Of a stretch of DNA of 64,000 nucleotides, positions 1,265 to 52,881 are shown piece by piece. The position numbers were made by a program, and so were the translations under genes. The DNA is taken from NCBI GenBank assembly GCA_023078555.1, contig CM041201.1, positions 4,533,713 through 4,597,712 of the forward strand. The letters run 5' to 3'. Under the pieces are notes generated by a model. The model did not search any database. It was not told the origin of the DNA and saw nothing but the letters and a program-made list of their open reading frames with translations. This DNA is from Ulva prolifera. Taxonomy: Eukaryota > Chlorophyta > Ulvophyceae > Ulvales > Ulvaceae. Within the stretch, counting starts at the first letter, position 1, and the number at the start of each line of letters is the position of its first letter.

Positions 1265-4200
1265 CTATGCTACTAAAACACGGCATCCACGGCGCTGCGT
1301 CCCAAGCCCAAGGACCCTGCCACCGGAAAAGCACCGCTTAGCACCCACGCGGCTCAGTAGTGCCCACTTCCTTTTCGGAATGCTGTGCCTGAGGCTTCAA
1401 GGCAACACGTCCGCACCTGGCACTGGCCAACACTTCAGGCAGCCCTACCTTACCTTGCGGGGCCGGCCTGGCCGAGCACCTCGATGGAGTCCGTCCAACC
1501 ATCAGGCGTCCAGTACCGGTCCTGCTGCTGCCAGCGCTCTGCAGCTGCCTCAGCTGCAGATTCACTGACCCTGCCGCCCTGTTCCGCACCAGAGCCCCAC
1601 TCCTCATGCTCCGGGCTCGGGTGCAGCACCCGAGCGCTGACTGGGGACGCCCCGGCTGCCCCACTGCTGCTGCTCGAGGGGGCCTGCAGCAGCGGCACGC
1701 GGTCTCCCGGCTCGCTGGGGCCCCCCGCGTGGACCTCTCTAGCACCCTGCGCTCCCCGGCACGCGTCAGCCTCAGCGTCAGCTGCCGCATGGACCTGAGC
1801 AAACGGATTCGTTCTGCTCCGCTGTGGCGCCGCGTGGACCCCTGCCCGCGGCCTGCCGCGCCTGCGCCGCGGCAGTCGGGGCTGCGGCACGCCTGCGCCC
1901 CGGCCGGTGTCTACCCAGCCCCGCAACCCCGACACCTCCGCACTGATGGCGGCTGCGTCTGCCTGACAGCCGAAGCTCTTGGTGCGCAGCACGGGCGCTG
2001 CCTCCTCCGGGCCAGGCTGTTGCTGCCTGAGCACCGCAACTGAGTGCGACGTAGGGGTGCCCCCGTCTCGCGCCGACGGCTCCGCAGCCGTGGGCGCACC
2101 GTGCGCCGTGAAGCTCTGACTCAGCTTCGTCTGTGAGAGCCAGTGCAGCGCGTAGTCACTCACGGTCGATGTGCGGGTGCGCCGCCGCTGTGCTTCAAGC
2201 ACAGGCATGGACGCATGGCGAAGCGGCTGCGCTGCCGCGGGCGGCTTCGCCGCCTGTGCGGCTGCTGTGGCGTTCCCTGTGCCGACGCTCAATGCCGCAC
2301 GCAACGCAGACGCGGTGTGTGACATCCCCGCCGAGCGGGACGCCGTGCGCACGGCAGCGCGCGTCCCGAAACTGCACACAACACCCCGGCTGGACTCTCA
2401 GGACAGCATCGCCGCGTGTGCGCCTTTCACAACAGCTGTGCCGCAACACGCACATGAGGCTGTGGCGCCCCTCCAGCGTCGGCCCCACGGTGCGCATGCA
2501 ATGCGCAGGACATGACCCAGCGAGGGTGGAGTGTACGCACCATGAGGGGTCCTTTGCGGCCTCCACCGCCCGGTCAGCGCGCAGGCTCATCTGCCTGCTG
2601 CTGTGTCGCAGGCCCGTCACCGACCGCTGCAGCATGCGGCTCTTGTTGAGCTGCGCAACGCCGGCCCTGCTTGCGTCACGGGATTCCTGCGGGCCATGCC
2701 GACGCCACGCCGCTGCTGCGTTCCGCGCAATCACCTCGATCTCTGCCGAGCTCAGGCCCGACCCCGTCTCCTGTCCATTCCCAGAGTTGTTATCTACCGT
2801 GCTGGACCCCGATGTCGCCGGCTGCGTGTGCCCAGTTAAGAACTCCCGCCGTGAAGTTCTCGCGCCGCCAACGGCACACCCGTCGTCTGCGCGCACTGCG
2901 CCTGCCTCCGGCGTTGGTTGGGGCACACCGGAGACGTTCTGATTCACCACAAGGGATCGCGAGACGTCGCGCATGGTGTACATGAAGTTAATCGACCCAT
3001 CGGACCCCGACTCCCTGCTTCTTTGGTTGTGCGGGGGGCGCGCGAGCCCGAATGCATGTGGCGGCCGACTCCTGGACTCCGGGACAGCAGGCTGCTCACC
3101 ACCACCTGAGCCCTGGACTGGCAGACATGCCGGGGGGTGAGACTCTGGCCGCGCACCGCCCTCCTGCTCCGCCATTGTAACGTTGCCGTTCCCAGAGCGG
3201 CTGCTCAGAAGACCAGAAAAGACGCTGTCAAACGGCTGCAGCGGGTCGGCAGGTAGCGGGTGGGCGGGCTGCAGCGGGTCGGCAGGTAGTGCCCCCGGAG
3301 CCGGGCTTGGGGGCACGGCAGGTAGCTGGTGCAGCGCGCTGCTGGCGCCCGCAGCGCCGGCCCGGCGCATCCCGATCCGCGGATCCGACGGCGCCGCCTG
3401 CGTAGAGCCGGTGGCGCTGGCTCGTGCGGGCGCAGCCACCACGAGCGCCGTGGATGCGGCCGAAGAGCCGTTGCGGGACTCCCCGGAACTTGAGGCTGCG
3501 CCGGAACGACGCGCTGCAGTGGAGGTCTCCGCAGCCCATGGCGCAGGCGCAGCGCCCGCGGCCCCGAAGTTGCGGTTCACATGGGTCGACCCAACAAATC
3601 GCAGTGGCGTAGCACCCACTGGCTCATGCTTCTTCACGATCGTCATCTCAGACGACGACGCGCGAGGCAGACGGCTGCCGGCGGCTCCAGATGCCGCGGC
3701 GCATGCATGTGGCGCTGCAGTGGCAGGCGCGCCGGTGGCTACGCTCTTGCGCAGCGACTGTGTGTGCGCGAGCTCGTCGGCGCCCTCCGGGAGCACGCTG
3801 AGCATGCGTGACAGCATACGGGCAGCTGCCGGCGACCGCGCGGCGCCGGGGGAGGAAGCCACGCCAGGCTGGGGCGCATCCGCGGCGGCGCCGGCGGCGG
3901 TTGCTGCCTCCCACCACGCGCCGCTGCTGCGTGCGCTGCCATCGCCGCTTCTGGCCGTGCAGAATGACGGGGCGGGGGACGAGGAGAGGAACTGTACGGA
4001 CCGTGAGGTGGGCATGTTGGGCCAGGAGGCGGACAGCGGCTCGTCGTCTAGGTTCAGCGGGGGCGGCAGCTTGTGCTTGAGGGCGCTGGGTTTGCTTGTG
4101 AGCTGTTTTGCGTACTGGGGAACGCTCCAGTACATCATCAAGTCGTCCTGGGGCCCCGCTTGGTACCTCTTCTGCATGCAGGAGGCCAATGAATTCATGG

Positions 4201-23114: not shown

Positions 23115-25090
23115 TCACTTGGACGGCTGGCTGTCCTGAGGCGCTGGCTCTGGGATGATGTCTGTGCCAGGTGTCGATGCCCACTCCATCCAGGAGCCAT
23201 CATAGATGGGTTTCTGCAAGCGTGTCCACTCTCAGCCCCTGTGCACCAGCTGGCCAGCCGCAGTGCCATGCTGCATGCAATGCCGGCAAGGCAGCACAAG
23301 GCACACATACGACACAACGCACTGCCAGCTCCAACACAAATGCATAGCCGCTAGTCACGAGGGGCACAGCAAGCTCGGTCTCCATGGAGTTGTGCGCCGC
23401 ACCAGCTCGCCGGTGACGGCGTAGGCCGCCAGGGAGAGCACCGCCCCGGTGGCGCCGGAGCCGCAGGAGCAGATGACCGGCGCCTCGAGGTCCACGCCCG
23501 CCGCATCAAACACCGCCTTCATGTCGCCCACTGACTTGAACACCCCGGAGGGCGCGCCGCCCTCCAAGAGGTCGGTGAAGGGGACGTTGAGCGCCCCTGC
23601 ACCACACCACCAGTCCAGCACCATCCTGTTAGAGAGAACAGCCGCGACACGGCGCCAGCTGCGGCCTGGCCTGCCACCAGCGACAGCAACCTGCACGCTC
23701 TACGACTGGCAAGGTAGCACTTTTAGAACACGAGCGCATCACGTGTATATCATAGGCATCCACCACCTGCGCGTGGCACACACCGGGCATGTGGCCGGAC
23801 GGGAGGTCGGCCCGCGGCTCCGGTGCGGTGCCGTCGAAGCGGCCAGCACTGCGGGCGTCCACCACCTGCGCCTGCGCCGCCAGCGCAGCCTTCACCTCGT
23901 CGATCGACTTGACCATGGCCAGGTCGAGCTTCGCAGGGTATGCCGCCATGGCCGTCGCCGCCGCCGCAGCCGCCGCCGGCGCCGCGATGGCTTCATCTGT
24001 GACCTCCTCCTCCGACACCTGCCCACCCGCCTCCTTCCACGCGGGGAAGCCGCCGGTCATCACTGCGACCCTGCACGCCACGCATGCTGTGTGCTATGCA
24101 TGAGGAGCAGCTGCGCCGCCTCGCGAAGCTCACGCCGATCCTAAGCCGTCCTCTACCAACTATGCAGGACCCAGCATCCCGAACACGGGGCCTCGTCTGC
24201 GCCGTGGTCACACGGTACAGAATCCAGACGCCCAGGGGCCTGTTTTCCGTGGAGCACGTCCGTCAGACCTGAGTTATTCAGCCCTTCTAGCAGGAGGCAG
24301 GCACACGCACCTCTCGTGGCCGAAGATCTTCCAGGTCCACCATGCCCGGGGGCTTGAGAAGGTGCCGAGGCGGTCGTACACGACAATCGTGTCAGCGGCG
24401 TCGATGCCGAGGGCGGTGGCAGCGGCGGAGAAGGCGGCCTCGGAGGGCACCATGTGTGGCAGCGGCCGCGAGCGGTCCGCGACGCCGTCGATGTCGAAGA
24501 ACTGGCTGCCGGGGATGCGGGCCGCCTTGAACTCCTCTGCGCCGCTGCGCTCTGCACGGGTGCAGCATGTGGCCGGCAACAGCGCGGAAGTGGTCACTGT
24601 GCAGGACCTGGGTGTTGGCTGTGAGGAAAGCGGCGGATGCTTGGGCGACTGAACCGCTGCCACCCTGACTGATGATTTATCAGAAGTGGTCTAGCAAGAG
24701 GACGTCATGGTTCACAGGGCAGGTGCAGCACACTGTCGGATTCTCTAATACAGCGCATGCACGCTGTGGTGTGTTTTCGTTTGCTGCGGGACGTGTCTGC
24801 TCTCTGAGAGGAGCACAGCCATTCGTGAGTTCCAGCCTGGAGCCCTTTGACATGGCAGCACCCCGATCCTGAGGCACAATGGTTAAAACATTCCGCATTG
24901 TAATGTAGCTGTAAACGTTTGGAATTTCAGTGCCAGGCGTGCAGCTGCGCGTTTGATGTGGCAGTATCGGCAGGCGGGGCACACCCATCGATGGCAGAAA
25001 CCAAGATGCATCCAGGACCTTGACGCCGGGATCGCCCAGTCGCTCCTTGAGCCAGTCTACTGACACGATGGCAGGCGTGCTGTCCGCCAT
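23115..25090 (-). CDS. thiosulfate/3-mercaptopyruvate sulfurtransferase (two-domain rhodanese)
   Basis: This family moves sulfur from 3-mercaptopyruvate or thiosulfate to a thiol acceptor or cyanide through a persulfide on an active-site cysteine. Five exons join in phase: 24985-25090, 24311-24551, 23784-24070, 23403-23596 and 23115-23213, for 308 residues, close to family length. The N-terminal, normally inactive rhodanese domain shows SVDWLKERLGDPGVKVLDAS, ARIPGSQFFDID, VVYDRLGTFSSPRAWW and MTGGFPAWKEAGG. The C-terminal catalytic domain shows QVVDARSAGRFDG, GALNVPFTDLLEGG, the active-site loop CSCGSGATGAV (catalytic Cys in CGSG) and the closing IYDGSWMEWAS. A 17-residue Ala/Thr-rich linker joins the two. 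The ATG at 25090 gives a protein without an obvious transit peptide. An upstream ATG frame encoding a basic leader (25335-25099) could be an alternative targeting exon, but this is unproven. Confidence 0.93.
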
Positions 25091-26012: not shown

Positions 26013-26040
26013 CACAGGCAGCTTCGACAAATGGGTGAAC
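26013..26040 (+). repeat. left 28-bp terminal inverted repeat
   Basis: It is an exact reverse complement of 29877-29904 and reads CACAGGCAGCTTCGAC inward. A 15-bp palindrome (GGTAAACCGTTTACC) follows at 26056-26070. Confidence 0.85.
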
Positions 26041-26512
26041 GGGCGGTAGCATGATGGTAAACCGTTTACCGATGACACTACCGGCTTGTGCTTGCTACCT
26101 CGGAGCCGCGGTACATGGACCTGCCAGGCGACCACGGTGGCCTTTACTGACGAGGGACCACTTTACGACGACGTACCAACGCATGCCTGCGCAGGTAAAA
26201 GCGCAAAGCAGGCAATGCCCGCTGCACTGCCCCTATGACCACCCACATTGTGTTGTTGTTACAAATAACTTTATGGCATGCCAAATGGCTGTCTGTGTGG
26301 CCATTTAGCCAAGTGCTGACCAGCTTGTGTACGGCAGCGTACCGCTCGGTACGCATGTGCACCACCAGCCCGCCCGACCGGCCTGATCACCGCTACGCCT
26401 GCTGTCGGGATCATGCGCACCAGGATAATGTATACTATATGCCATCAGCTACGTGGTAGCGCCTGCAGCGCTGTCCTAGACGTGGTATGTATTGCACGTC
26501 TGTTGTGTACTT

Positions 26513-26544
26513 ATGACGCCAGGCTCGAATGACGCCAAGCTCGA
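26513..26544 (+). repeat. 16-bp tandem duplication
   Basis: TGACGCCAGGCTCGAA at 26513-26528 is followed directly by TGACGCCAAGCTCGAC at 26529-26544, with 14 of 16 positions identical. It lies 3' of the element-internal gene. Confidence 0.7.
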
Positions 26545-26638
26545 CTTCAACGTAGAGATGGATGAATGTTTTTACCGAGGTGCGGCTGGGAGGCAGTAGT
26601 GCTCCATGAAGCTTGCTGGACTGGTGCAGCCGGAGCTG

Positions 26639-29059
26639 CTACACCTCTGGCCCACCAGCAGATCGGCCCTGACGCCGTTTGATGTCCGCAATGAGCTTGT
26701 CTTCTTCTTCAGGAGATAGGTTTACACCATTCACACAAGCCTGCAATTTGGCTAGTTTGGTGTCTCGTCCACCAACCTGCGTACACAGCGCCTGATTTGA
26801 CATGTCAAGCAGAAGGCAATGCTCCATTGACCATCGCTGCGATTTGACTGGACAGAAGTGAGCCAGGTCAGCATGACCAAATGTCGGAACTGGAACTGTA
26901 CCTTTGCATGTTCATTGGTGTCTGCTGCATGCTCTGAATTCCTGTGCCCTTTGCTCACTCTGCCCTGAAGAGCACCGGCGTCTCAGATCACAATCGTGCT
27001 GAGTTCCCAGTCAAAATGTACTCATGTCATGCAGCCAAGCGATTCGCTTGTCATGGTGGCATACCTGCTGTGCAGGTACCCGCCGAGCCTTGACAAGCTG
27101 CAAGGGCTTTGTCGTTGCCTTGGAGTTGGCCACGGCAGGCGGAGTTGACCGTTTCTGTCTGATGCCGTCGCTACTCTGAGCCTGTGGAGCTTTCTGGTTC
27201 GGGAGCGAGAGGTCATCAGGCGCAGTTTGCTTGATGATACGACCACATCTTGACCGGGAAGGCTTGCTAGGCTGCAAGGGGAGATCGGCGGCTCTCTTCT
27301 TCCCGCTGATGTCGCTGTTGTTGGCCTAGAGATCTTTTTTGTGTTGCAGCGGGAGGTCAGTGGGCACATGATGCCTCGGCTTGATGATGCAGACTGGTCG
27401 GGCATTGGGAGCCTTGTTGGGCTGCAGAGCGGGTGGTGGGCAGCGCTCGGGTGAAGGAGCTGGTTGGTGATGGAGCGGGTGTTCCTCTTGAGACGGAGGA
27501 TTCTCGTCTTGGGACAGATCGCGCTCCTCTTGGGACTGGGCTCTCCCAATGAGGGCTTCAAACTGAGTGTTCTCAATGAGCGGTTGTGAATACTGTTGTG
27601 ATGGTAGGCCCACCTCTTGGGACTGTGTGTCCGAGTCTTGTGTGTCAACTGGACGCACTGGAGATTCTTCGTTCAAACCATGTGCTGGTGGCGGTGCTGT
27701 GAGCCCAAGCTATGCCAGCAGCTTTGGATCGAATTTGGCCTGCCAAGCATCATTCATGTAAGGATACAGAGCTTGCAGCAGCGGCTGTACACTGAACTTC
27801 ACCCATGCCGCATTGCAGCGCAGTAGTGGTTTGTCAACCAGGTTGTCTTTGTAGTTTCGTTTCACGTCATTGGCCCTGTTCTTAAAATTGTTCTGCACTC
27901 GTGGCCAGGTCAGCCAGCATAAGGCGCATGACAGCCTCACCAGGACAAATCCATGTGATGACAAACCTGAACTTCTTCTTGTGGCAATGCTGGGCAGTTT
28001 TGTTCCTTGAAGTAAATATTTGCCGTTTCGATTGCATTCTCTGACCATTTTACATGCAGATCTGTCAGCGAATCGGGCTGGTACGCAAGATCAAGAGAAT
28101 ATTCGTCCAAGGTCTCCCGGACCATTTCTTTCGATAGGAATTTGAACAGATGTACTGTGGAGCAAAAAATCAGCGGTGGGCAGTCCCTTGCTGCATCCAT
28201 TATTGCTTCCTCCTGCTGGCTCGGTGTGACGGACCGGTCGCATGTCAACTGTCCAACGTAGATGAGCGTCTCCATGAAGGCTGATGTTGCCCCGTTTTCC
28301 TCATCAAATTCCACTGCATATATTTCATTTTGCAGTGGCAATGCCCATCAATCACATCAGGTCTCATACCAGATCCAATTCAGTAACATACATGGATGCC
28401 TCATGTAAATTCTGGCCTGTGCGTCGACCACAATGGATCTCTGCTTCCGCTGTATCGTTTTTGAATCCTGTAGGTGGTGAGGAGGCCCGGGGTCACTGGG
28501 TGCAATTTGTTGATCCATAACCATTCCTGTGGGGGTGAGTCCATATGAAAATCCAGTGCACGACGCAGTAACATTTTCGTTCATCATGTGGGTCTCCATT
28601 GCCGTGAATCTGCCAGCTGGGTCTTTCTTCATACGTGCTATGAACATGTGATCAGGGACGACATCCTGCAACCAACACTGTTCGGCACGAACCAATATTC
28701 CAACTTTACGTCGATTTAGCAGACACCAAGCATACATCGTCCTTCACAAAGGCTGCCAGCTTCCTGATCACTTTGCGTATGGACCAGTTTGACCTGTCTC
28801 CGATTGCCTCCGCCTCCTTCTTCGTCGGATTACGCCAGGTGTTTTGTACAGAGCTGGAGACCACCCAGGTAGATTTGCACGACCACCCCAGTGCATCGCG
28901 ACATGTTGTCAGGTTGATTTCTGCCACTAATCGATCGACGTCCTCGTCCGCGTCAATTTCTATGCGGCGAGCCGACTGTTCAACAGAGTACACAGCAGAC
29001 TTATTGTCAGAACTGCGAGTCAGTGGATACAGACACAATAGCGCCTTTCTCAAAGTCAT
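26639..29059 (-). CDS. multi-exon gene of unknown family inside the inverted-repeat element
   Basis: I do not recognise this protein. It starts at ATG 29059 (MTLRKALLCLYPLTR). Exons 28736-29059, 28392-28665 and 27967-28313 join in phase over introns of 70, 78 and 74 bases with GTATGC, GTATGT and GTTTGT donors. An exon from 27892 continues (NNFKNRANDVKRNYKDN). Readable segments include DDDVVPDHMFIARMKKDP, SIVVDAQARIYMRHP, EFDEENGATSAFMETL, CPPLIFCSTVHLFKFL and LTDLHVKWSENAIETANIYF. The C-terminal third is Gln/Ser/Pro-rich and basic, with a degenerate internal repeat (KAPNARPVCIIK ... SRSRCGRIIK), and ends with SPEEEDKLIADIKRRQGR and a TAG at 26639. Two further in-frame TAGs, at about 27710 and 27326, can be removed by introns whose length is a multiple of three (81 and 69 or 42 bases); otherwise they are nonsense mutations. 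Its place between inverted repeats makes a transposase or accessory transposon protein the leading guess. I see no clear DDE triad. Confidence 0.6.
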
Positions 29060-29876
29060 CGTCGAGAGCTCAATTTTGACCTGACCCAACCAACATTGTC
29101 ACCAGCGGAACATGCACAACCAGAAAGTCAACGTGCGACATTGTTAGATGTGTGTCAAGATTGTGCCTCTGGTGGTGGCTGAGTCTGTGATCGCGCCTTG
29201 TTGCAGTCAGATTTTGTGCATTCGCGTCTCACAGGCAGCCTGTGGACACTCCCACTGCAGTGGCAGCATGCAATGCGCGCATCGACAGCTGTCAATGGCT
29301 GCCCCAATATGATTTGATATTGAAATTATGTAATTCGTAGTAGAAGCTGGACATTCGCCTCCGCCCCGGCAACAAAATGTTCCATCGTGCTGGCCACGAA
29401 ATCAATCACAGACGCCATTCACACAACAATAGAGCCAACAGCCAGTGGCTCTTGTTTTAAAGCTGCCCGATTGGGCCGGCAGGAGACATGCTCGAGCTCT
29501 ACCGACGCAAACCAGTGGTAAATGCTGGTAACCGGACGCGCTTGCAAGAGTACGCCAGAGAAAATCATGGCTCTTCTTGCAATGCAATCAACGTAGTTGT
29601 GCTCCTTAAAGCAACGGCAGTCCATATCGACTGACCTCACAACGAGCAGCGGAGCTTTCAAACTCTCCGCTGTACTCGAACGGTGTTGCGCGGTAGCACG
29701 GTGTAAAGCTGTGCGTTCCTTGACAGAGAAATACATCTAGCTACGCGCATAGGCATCATCTGAAGACGCAAAAAACACAGTCGTGCATCACTCAACACAA
29801 GCAACAGAATGCACGTGCTTTTTGTGCAATTCCAAGTTTGGCCAAATTTACCGATACCACCACCGCTATACAGCGA

Positions 29877-29904
29877 GTTCACCCATTTGTCGAAGCTGCC
29901 TGTG
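29877..29904 (-). repeat. right 28-bp terminal inverted repeat
   Basis: It is an exact reverse complement of 26013-26040. It ends 232 bases before the tentative SBNO start codon at 30137. Confidence 0.85.
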
Positions 29905-30136
29905 ATCCACTCGGGAGTGGATGTGCACGACTTGCGCTGTCGATCACAACCGCTGCAGCATCGCCTCCATTACACAACGCGCGCCAAGCAGACATTGGGC
30001 ACATATCATTTGCAGGCATGGGCTACGTTCAAGGTCAGTTCTCGGGAACAGCAGCCTTGGACAGTGTCTCCAGTTTTCAACAATGGACCCGAAACGCGCT
30101 CCTGGACGCATGACGCGGCTGCACACAGTTGAGATC

Positions 30137-52161: not shown

Positions 52162-52881
52162 ATGCACCCATCCAACGATTACAGCGGGAGCGGGGAGACA
52201 GAAGAGAGTGGAGACTCCGAGGTCACAGACGACGTCACGCCATGGATCCAATGGTTCTGTGGTCTGAAAGGAAACGAATTTTTCTGCGAGGTGGACGAGG
52301 ATTTCATTGCAGATGAATTCAACTGTGCTGGCCTGAGCTCCCAGGTGCCATATTATGATTATGCACTGAGCCTGATGCTCGATGCAGACTCTCCAAACGC
52401 AGAGCTGTCTCCCGAACAGAGTGAGTATGTTGAAAGCGCAGCTGAGCTTCTTTATGGTCTTGTGCACCAACGCTTCATCTTGACTGCGAAGGGTTTGGCA
52501 CAGATGCTGGACAAGTTTCGCAGCCATGACTTTGGCCGATGCCCTAGGGTGGGCTGTAACGGGCAGGCATGCCTACCAGTTGGCACATCCGACCAGCCTC
52601 GTGTGAGCACAGTGAAAGTTTTCTGTCCGAGATGTGAGGACCTATATTATCCGCGCAGTTACTACCAGGGCAACCTTGATGGGGCATTTTTTGGGACCAC
52701 GTTCCCTCACTTGTTGCTGCTCACGTATCCAGCTTACCGTCCACAGAAGTGTTTGCCTGATTACAAGCCACGTATTTTCGGCTTCAGAGTCCACCCGACT
52801 GCGTATGGGGATGACCCTCTGCGCAACCCGACTAAGACATCTTTGATAGAGGAGGAGATTGACACAGACCATATGCGGTGA
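52162..52881 (+). CDS. CKB: casein kinase 2 regulatory (beta) subunit
   Basis: CK2 beta dimerises through a zinc-binding domain and holds two catalytic alpha subunits in the CK2 holoenzyme, a pleiotropic acidophilic Ser/Thr kinase of nucleus and cytosol. The single uninterrupted frame gives 239 residues. An acidic Ser-rich leader (residues 1-25) precedes the family start [20 protein letters not shown]. It continues with [20 protein letters not shown] (residues 93-112), the zinc ligands Cys127 and Cys132 (CPRVGC) and Cys155 and Cys158 (CPRC), then [18 protein letters not shown] and the alpha-contact tail [11 protein letters not shown]. The acidic loop after residue 72 is less acidic than in animals. 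Length and motif order are typical. It has no introns, unlike every neighbour. TGTAA follows 135 bases past the TGA stop. Confidence 0.97.

Follow-up and report, generated by a model that had tools for sequence, protein, structure and literature searches.

A probably non-autonomous CACTA-like DNA transposon of Ulva prolifera and a candidate transposase gene in a larger relative

The window analysed is a stretch of 64,000 nucleotides from the Ulva prolifera genome (C6:4533713-4597712, in an assembly of 88.9 Mb and 44 contigs). At 26013-29904 it holds an element of 3,892 bp enclosed by perfect inverted repeats of 28 bp, located at 26013-26040 and 29877-29904 as an earlier note on this DNA had described. 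Inside lies a gene on the minus strand, starting at 29059, with at least four phase-consistent exons. The features of the element are as follows.

26013-26040, plus strand: left terminal inverted repeat, 28 bp and perfect; a 36-bp form (26013-26048) matches at 92%
26013-26393 (element 1-381), plus strand: left terminal region, common to internally different copies; sibling families match it at 67-71%
26639-26911, minus strand: possible last exon, ending ...GRSAGGPEV and a stop; its likeness to the homologue was seen by eye only
27710-27892, minus strand: exon 4, up to a TAG at 27712-27710
27967-28313, minus strand: exon 3 (model), from the splice model and a match to the homologue
28392-28665, minus strand: exon 2 (model), from GT-AG and phase, with a weak homologue match (31% over 55 aa)
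28736-29059, minus strand: exon 1, 108 codons, MTLRKALL...
29066-29449, no strand: presumed site of loss, where a related element on C7 has about 5 kb with a candidate transposase gene
29450-29904 (element 3438-3892), plus strand: right terminal region, common to internally different copies
29877-29904, minus strand: right terminal inverted repeat, 28 bp and perfect; the 36-bp form is 29869-29904

Elsewhere in the window, an open frame at 52162-52881 looks by eye like a casein kinase II beta subunit. Scanning the window for Rfam families and tRNAs gave no hits. Blocks with a GC content of 0.48-0.57 lie at about 5-15, 26-31 and 48-54 kb, much of the remainder being at 0.60-0.72; only the block at about 26-31 kb overlaps the transposon.

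Under a crude uniform-base model, about 6e-8 perfect repeat pairs of this kind are expected in 64 kb, which makes the pair very unlikely as a product of chance. A 20-base piece of the repeat, with up to three mismatches allowed, was found nowhere else in the window. The termini of the family read CACAGGCAGC...GCTGCCTGTG. Short subterminal repeats in arrays are common in plant CACTA elements. Within the left 488 bp of the window element there were no subterminal direct repeats, and the right 505 bp contained two families of two copies each; one motif is present once at each end of the element, and no repeat array was found in either region.

A search of the genome with the 28-bp repeat gave 18 places at up to three mismatches, 13 of them perfect, and none for the reversed-pattern control, so the repeats are not single-copy. 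CACAG forms the first bases at 16 of the 18 places, AACAG and GACAG at one each. With the whole element (3,892 bp) as DNA query, at least 58 match rows were obtained, a lower bound for which 40 of 43 first-look candidates were scored. A second complete copy was found at C3:7324223-7328127, 98.9% identical (3,865 of 3,907 aligned positions) and differing by an insertion of 15 bp and a deletion of 2 bp. Together with the window element it makes two full-length copies free of other inserts. A third copy, C7:3689088-3699908, is in two halves, split within the third gene intron by a copia retrotransposon of 6.9 kb with an open frame of 1,717 aa and GCGCC on both sides. This copy of 10.8 kb was considered as a fuller element and rejected, the extra 6.9 kb being the copia insertion. 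Four further stretches are 98.7-99.3% identical to the window element, namely both halves of this third copy, a half copy at C7:3611904 and another at C5:5912807. Among the other results of the whole-element search are incomplete copies on C5 and C7 and numerous places where nothing but the terminal 350-450 bp, in part or in full, is preserved. The near-identity among copies, read from sequence comparison, fits recent movement.

Some of these copies have peculiarities of their own. The break in the half copy at C7:3611904 falls at the element position where copia sits in C7:3689088-3699908; should this half copy hold copia as well, copia inserted first and the copying, through transposition or segmental duplication, followed. 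A copy of 16.6 kb at C6:5530466-5547126 has diverged ends, a repetitive stretch at around 0.7-1.6 kb and a copia element that reads as two long frames. A span of about 190 bp at C6:2850331-2850522 matches both element ends and may be a miniature (MITE-like) derivative.

The flanks of six copies with both ends were read for target duplications.

C3:7324223-7328127, second complete copy: ATG
C2:11877827-11881032: CAT
C7:3689088-3699908, copia-split copy: TTC
C7:3993435-3996528, sibling-family element: TTA
Window copy: no duplication (flanks TGC / ATC)
C6:5530466-5547126: no duplication (flanks GAC / CGA)

Four of the six, one of them the sibling family, thus have a 3-bp duplication. The ATG and TTC copies permit 3 bp only; coincidence of the adjoining bases lets the TTA junction be read as a duplication of 3 to 5 bp, and the CAT junction has a similar ambiguity. 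The earlier note had reported no clear target duplication, which is correct for the window copy but does not extend to the family: with 3 bp in four of six copies, the missing duplication is a trait of the window copy. Swapped ends were considered as its cause and rejected, no partner flank being found by eye among the single-ended copies.

Insert-free sites were sought with joined flanks. Those of the TTA sibling matched C7:4691492-4691930 at 80% (query 1-400) and C2:7896690-7897060 at 84% (query 26-381), and two more rows matched the left flank only. Read directly, the C2 junction is identical at 71 of 75 positions, has no gap and contains a single TTA. This precise empty site fixes the termini and the duplication of the sibling. 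For the window and C3 copies the same search gave no empty site in this genome, their flanks being unique. The dispersed copies and the sibling's empty site bear out the earlier note's proposal of a DNA transposon that carries a multi-exon gene of its own.

Duplications are of 8 bp in hAT, of 9-11 bp in Mutator and of 3 bp of the TWA type in PIF-Harbinger elements. None of these groups is matched by ATG, CAT, TTC and TTA, of which only TTA fits TWA. The note had excluded CACTA too. That exclusion rested on a single copy without duplication and on the CACAG start, but the other copies show 3-bp duplications and CAC..GTG ends, the pattern used for EnSpm/CACTA in PMC12730594.

The gene in the element was modelled with three introns (70, 78 and 74 nt) that keep the phase and have GT-AG borders throughout, the splice sites being set by consensus without transcripts. 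In exon 4 the window copy has a TAG (27712-27710) where the C3 and C7:3689088 copies have CAG; beyond it the frame continues to a stop at 27328-27326 found in all three copies. The window copy of the gene itself carries an early stop. A diverged homologue is carried by a larger related element on C7. Against this homologue, exon 1 showed 56% amino acid identity over 107 codons (dS 1.65, dN 0.35), a further exon 40% over 62 codons (dS 1.69, dN 0.58) and another 37% over 57 codons (dS 2.60, dN 0.43), with dS near saturation. Since dN lies far under dS in each exon, the gene encodes, or did until recently, a selected protein. Judged by this codon comparison, the gene is real and under purifying selection against its homologue, and the phase-consistent multi-exon gene of the earlier note is upheld.

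All eight genome match rows of exon 1 (six places) and all six of exon 3 lie inside family members. Pfam searches with eight pieces of the gene strand and the spliced part, and NCBIfam searches with five pieces, gave only matches far below cut-off; PDB searches were empty, with nothing credible for the gene, and an IMG/VR scan gave four pattern matches and no relative. By eye, no DDE pattern was recognised in the gene. A fold predicted from exon 1 alone was worthless (pLDDT 36). The introns and the want of a recognised transposase domain would suit a host gene captured by a deletion derivative, as in Pack-type CACTA elements. This origin is highly improbable, however, as every match row of the gene falls inside family members and a diverged version occupies the same place and orientation in the related element. 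The gene is most likely a companion gene and not the transposase.

The larger related element has its left repeat at C7:4013767, and the window-gene homologue lies on its minus strand. Beyond this homologue, from about C7:4018093, a plus-strand gene follows in pieces. Its 3' part, to about C7:4021459, is uncertain; the exons were joined with guessed splice points, and the later ones are doubtful. After this gene comes right-terminal sequence, in two stretches that match positions 3453-3660 and 3647-3740 of the window element. Positions 2803-3050 and 3453-3660 of the window element match 24510-24757 and 29711-29917 of the C7 stretch, respectively. In the window element a mere 400 bp or so (29066-29449) separates these two matches, and the transposase gene was most likely lost there. 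No right repeat was recognised in the larger element, so the candidate transposase was not observed between two intact ends, and a TAG within the exon-3 match indicates that this companion copy may be damaged too.

The plus-strand gene is a candidate transposase. Its conserved blocks are CPCCGEPRW, then MMCLEIASDGG...LLIVPGPRAPKDSGVYW, then ADWMERFKTFKML followed by cysteines; among the motifs are ASDGG...IVPGPRAPKD and ADWMER. Three other loci in the genome hold relatives of the first exon (38-43% identity), and exons of the gene recur on C1, C2 and C9 (at C1:1706804, C2:3756370 and C9:2410882) with 38-55% identity in the longer matches. The exon with the D-G and PGP blocks gave 22 genome match rows at E<=1, comprising itself, the C1, C2 and C9 loci and weak rows, most of the latter at E 0.003 to 0.04; one weak relative, C2:498118, shows 34% over 53 aa. 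Eight places match this exon with equal scores (E 0.039, 33%, open frame of 157 aa): C1:135803, C1:9415456, C2:3417186, C2:10727416, C2:10739757, C3:5486241, C3:6986629 and C6:5688529. Going by these shared scores, they possibly represent a second, multicopy CACTA-like family.

Domain searches with the candidate transposase were negative. Pfam gave no match at E<=10 for the joined exons or for exon B alone. A CxC2 match (E 0.013) in one of six unspliced pieces was below cut-off, in a frame that overlaps a real exon, and was rejected as chance. A genome search with PF02992 (Transposase_21) returned one place below cut-off, C1:7017852 (18.9 bits), and no control genome matched either; this place is without significant same-frame similarity to the candidate transposase, looks like chance and was rejected as a relative. 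With PF18758 (KDZ) neither this genome nor any control genome matched. PF18759 (Plavaka) had no match here at E<=1, its sole control match being in Thermotoga maritima, below cut-off.

Could the window gene itself be the transposase of a new superfamily, on an element autonomous now or recently, with the C7 plus-strand gene belonging to another, nested element? The window gene is without credible database relatives and is conserved across two element families; two full-length copies exist without other inserts, and the element at C7:4013767 has no right repeat. Yet within a single element the plus-strand gene is flanked by the companion gene on one side and by the right-terminal homologue on the other, it has relatives elsewhere in the genome and TNP2-like D-G and PGP blocks, and no DDE pattern was recognised by eye in the window gene. 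We regard this explanation as unlikely.

A separate question is how far from known groups the candidate transposase stands. It could mark a new superfamily that is distinct from EnSpm but belongs to the CMCT clade (EnSpm-Mirage-Chapaev-Transib and allies) or stands next to it, having a separate transposase lineage while sharing CA..TG ends and short duplications. The ends read CACAG instead of CACTA, Pfam gives no credible match, and weak forms of the transposase block occur at further genome places. However, the CAC..GTG ends, the 3-bp duplications and the presence of two genes resemble EnSpm as described in PMC12730594 and PMC4158355, and the failure of Pfam may stem from divergence and from intron-split fragments joined by hand; such a superfamily is quite improbable. 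Stated more broadly, a distinct undescribed superfamily or deep CMCT lineage, with CACAG ends, 3-bp duplications, a transposase beyond Pfam, a divergently transcribed companion without known relative and further multicopy families in this genome sharing the block, is doubtful, a minority possibility.

The window element probably belongs to a CACTA-like (EnSpm-type) family of cut-and-paste transposons and is probably non-autonomous, having seemingly lost its transposase and kept the companion gene. With companion, candidate transposase and shared right-terminal sequence all present in the element at C7:4013767, the window copy is most likely a non-autonomous derivative without transposase. What has been demonstrated of movement is past insertion. 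In plant CACTA elements, TNPA binds the element ends. By analogy, a DDE transposase supplied by a fuller relative would bind the inverted repeats, excise the element and insert it at a target cut with a 3-bp stagger. The companion protein may act as a helper that binds the ends in the manner of TNPA. It would then take the role of the ORF2 of plant CACTA elements, which helps in excision (PMC4158355). An internal deletion would have removed the transposase gene where 29066-29449 now lies.

An element that was formerly unplaceable is thereby largely placed, with mapped ends, a precise empty site in a sibling and a candidate transposase. In other respects the window element is unremarkable, a crippled copy of a transposon whose kind is largely familiar. 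Of the unassigned, little-described lineage envisaged in the earlier note, the greater part gives way to CACTA-like traits; the idea is partly alive in a candidate transposase without a credible Pfam match. The findings point to CACTA-like transposases in this genome that escape the standard profile, so counts of these elements in related genomes may be too low. In the literature searched, part of it in excerpt, no description of this family was found, which is weak evidence.

CACTA elements are known from algae according to a passage of PMC4158355; a search for the term 'CACTA' in the Chlamydomonas genome paper PMC8226300 found none. From Chlamydomonas and its relatives, Zisupton and Kyakuja are reported in an extract of PMC8226300. 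The KDZ group (Kyakuja, Dileera, Zisupton) resembles the present family in being DNA transposons of green algae, with CA..TG ends in Kyakuja, but the Kyakuja families described in the sections of PMC12730594 at hand make 7-bp duplications and are without inverted repeats. The same sections give most CMCT lineages CA..TG ends and duplications of 2-5 bp, and in these traits Plavaka, ESTA, Mirage, Chapaev, Transib and Lanisha are mostly alike with the window family. Plavaka differs in its TGT..ACA or CATCA..TGATG ends and ESTA in duplicating TA (PMC12730594, in part). The clade is further marked there by C(2)C and H(3-4)H between the second D and E; cysteines follow the second D block of the candidate transposase, with a C(2)C spacing that is not clean.

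From EnSpm/CACTA itself the family differs in several respects. Its ends begin CACAG, and the strict plant definition in the part of PMC4158355 seen requires CACTA as the first five bases. The candidate transposase is not recognised by Transposase_21 (PF02992), companion and candidate transposase genes are divergently transcribed, and no subterminal repeat array was found. CACTA transposase motif I, which an excerpt of PMC1636069 gives as a hydrophobic-rich stretch followed by D-G and W-P, is only partly present (no W-P); motif II is given as a conserved G followed by P. Because of the CACAG ends and the want of a credible Transposase_21, Plavaka or KDZ match, the family is filed as CACTA-like and divergent, a designation that, with no credible Pfam match for the candidate transposase, goes as far as the evidence does.

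CAC..GTG ends with a 3-bp duplication are taken as consistent with EnSpm/CACTA on the partial text of PMC12730594, and internally shortened copies are a further shared trait. A full-length CACTA element, as set out in the available portion of PMC4158355, consists of two inverted repeats, a transposase, ORF2 and a 3-bp duplication, with ORF2 supporting excision and transposition in particular CACTA families. A second, ORF2-like gene adjoins the candidate transposase in the element at C7:4013767, for which the right repeat was not found. The D-G and PGP blocks of the candidate transposase are TNP2-like, in a comparison made by eye with the motif wording in part of PMC1636069 and with TNP2 sequences.
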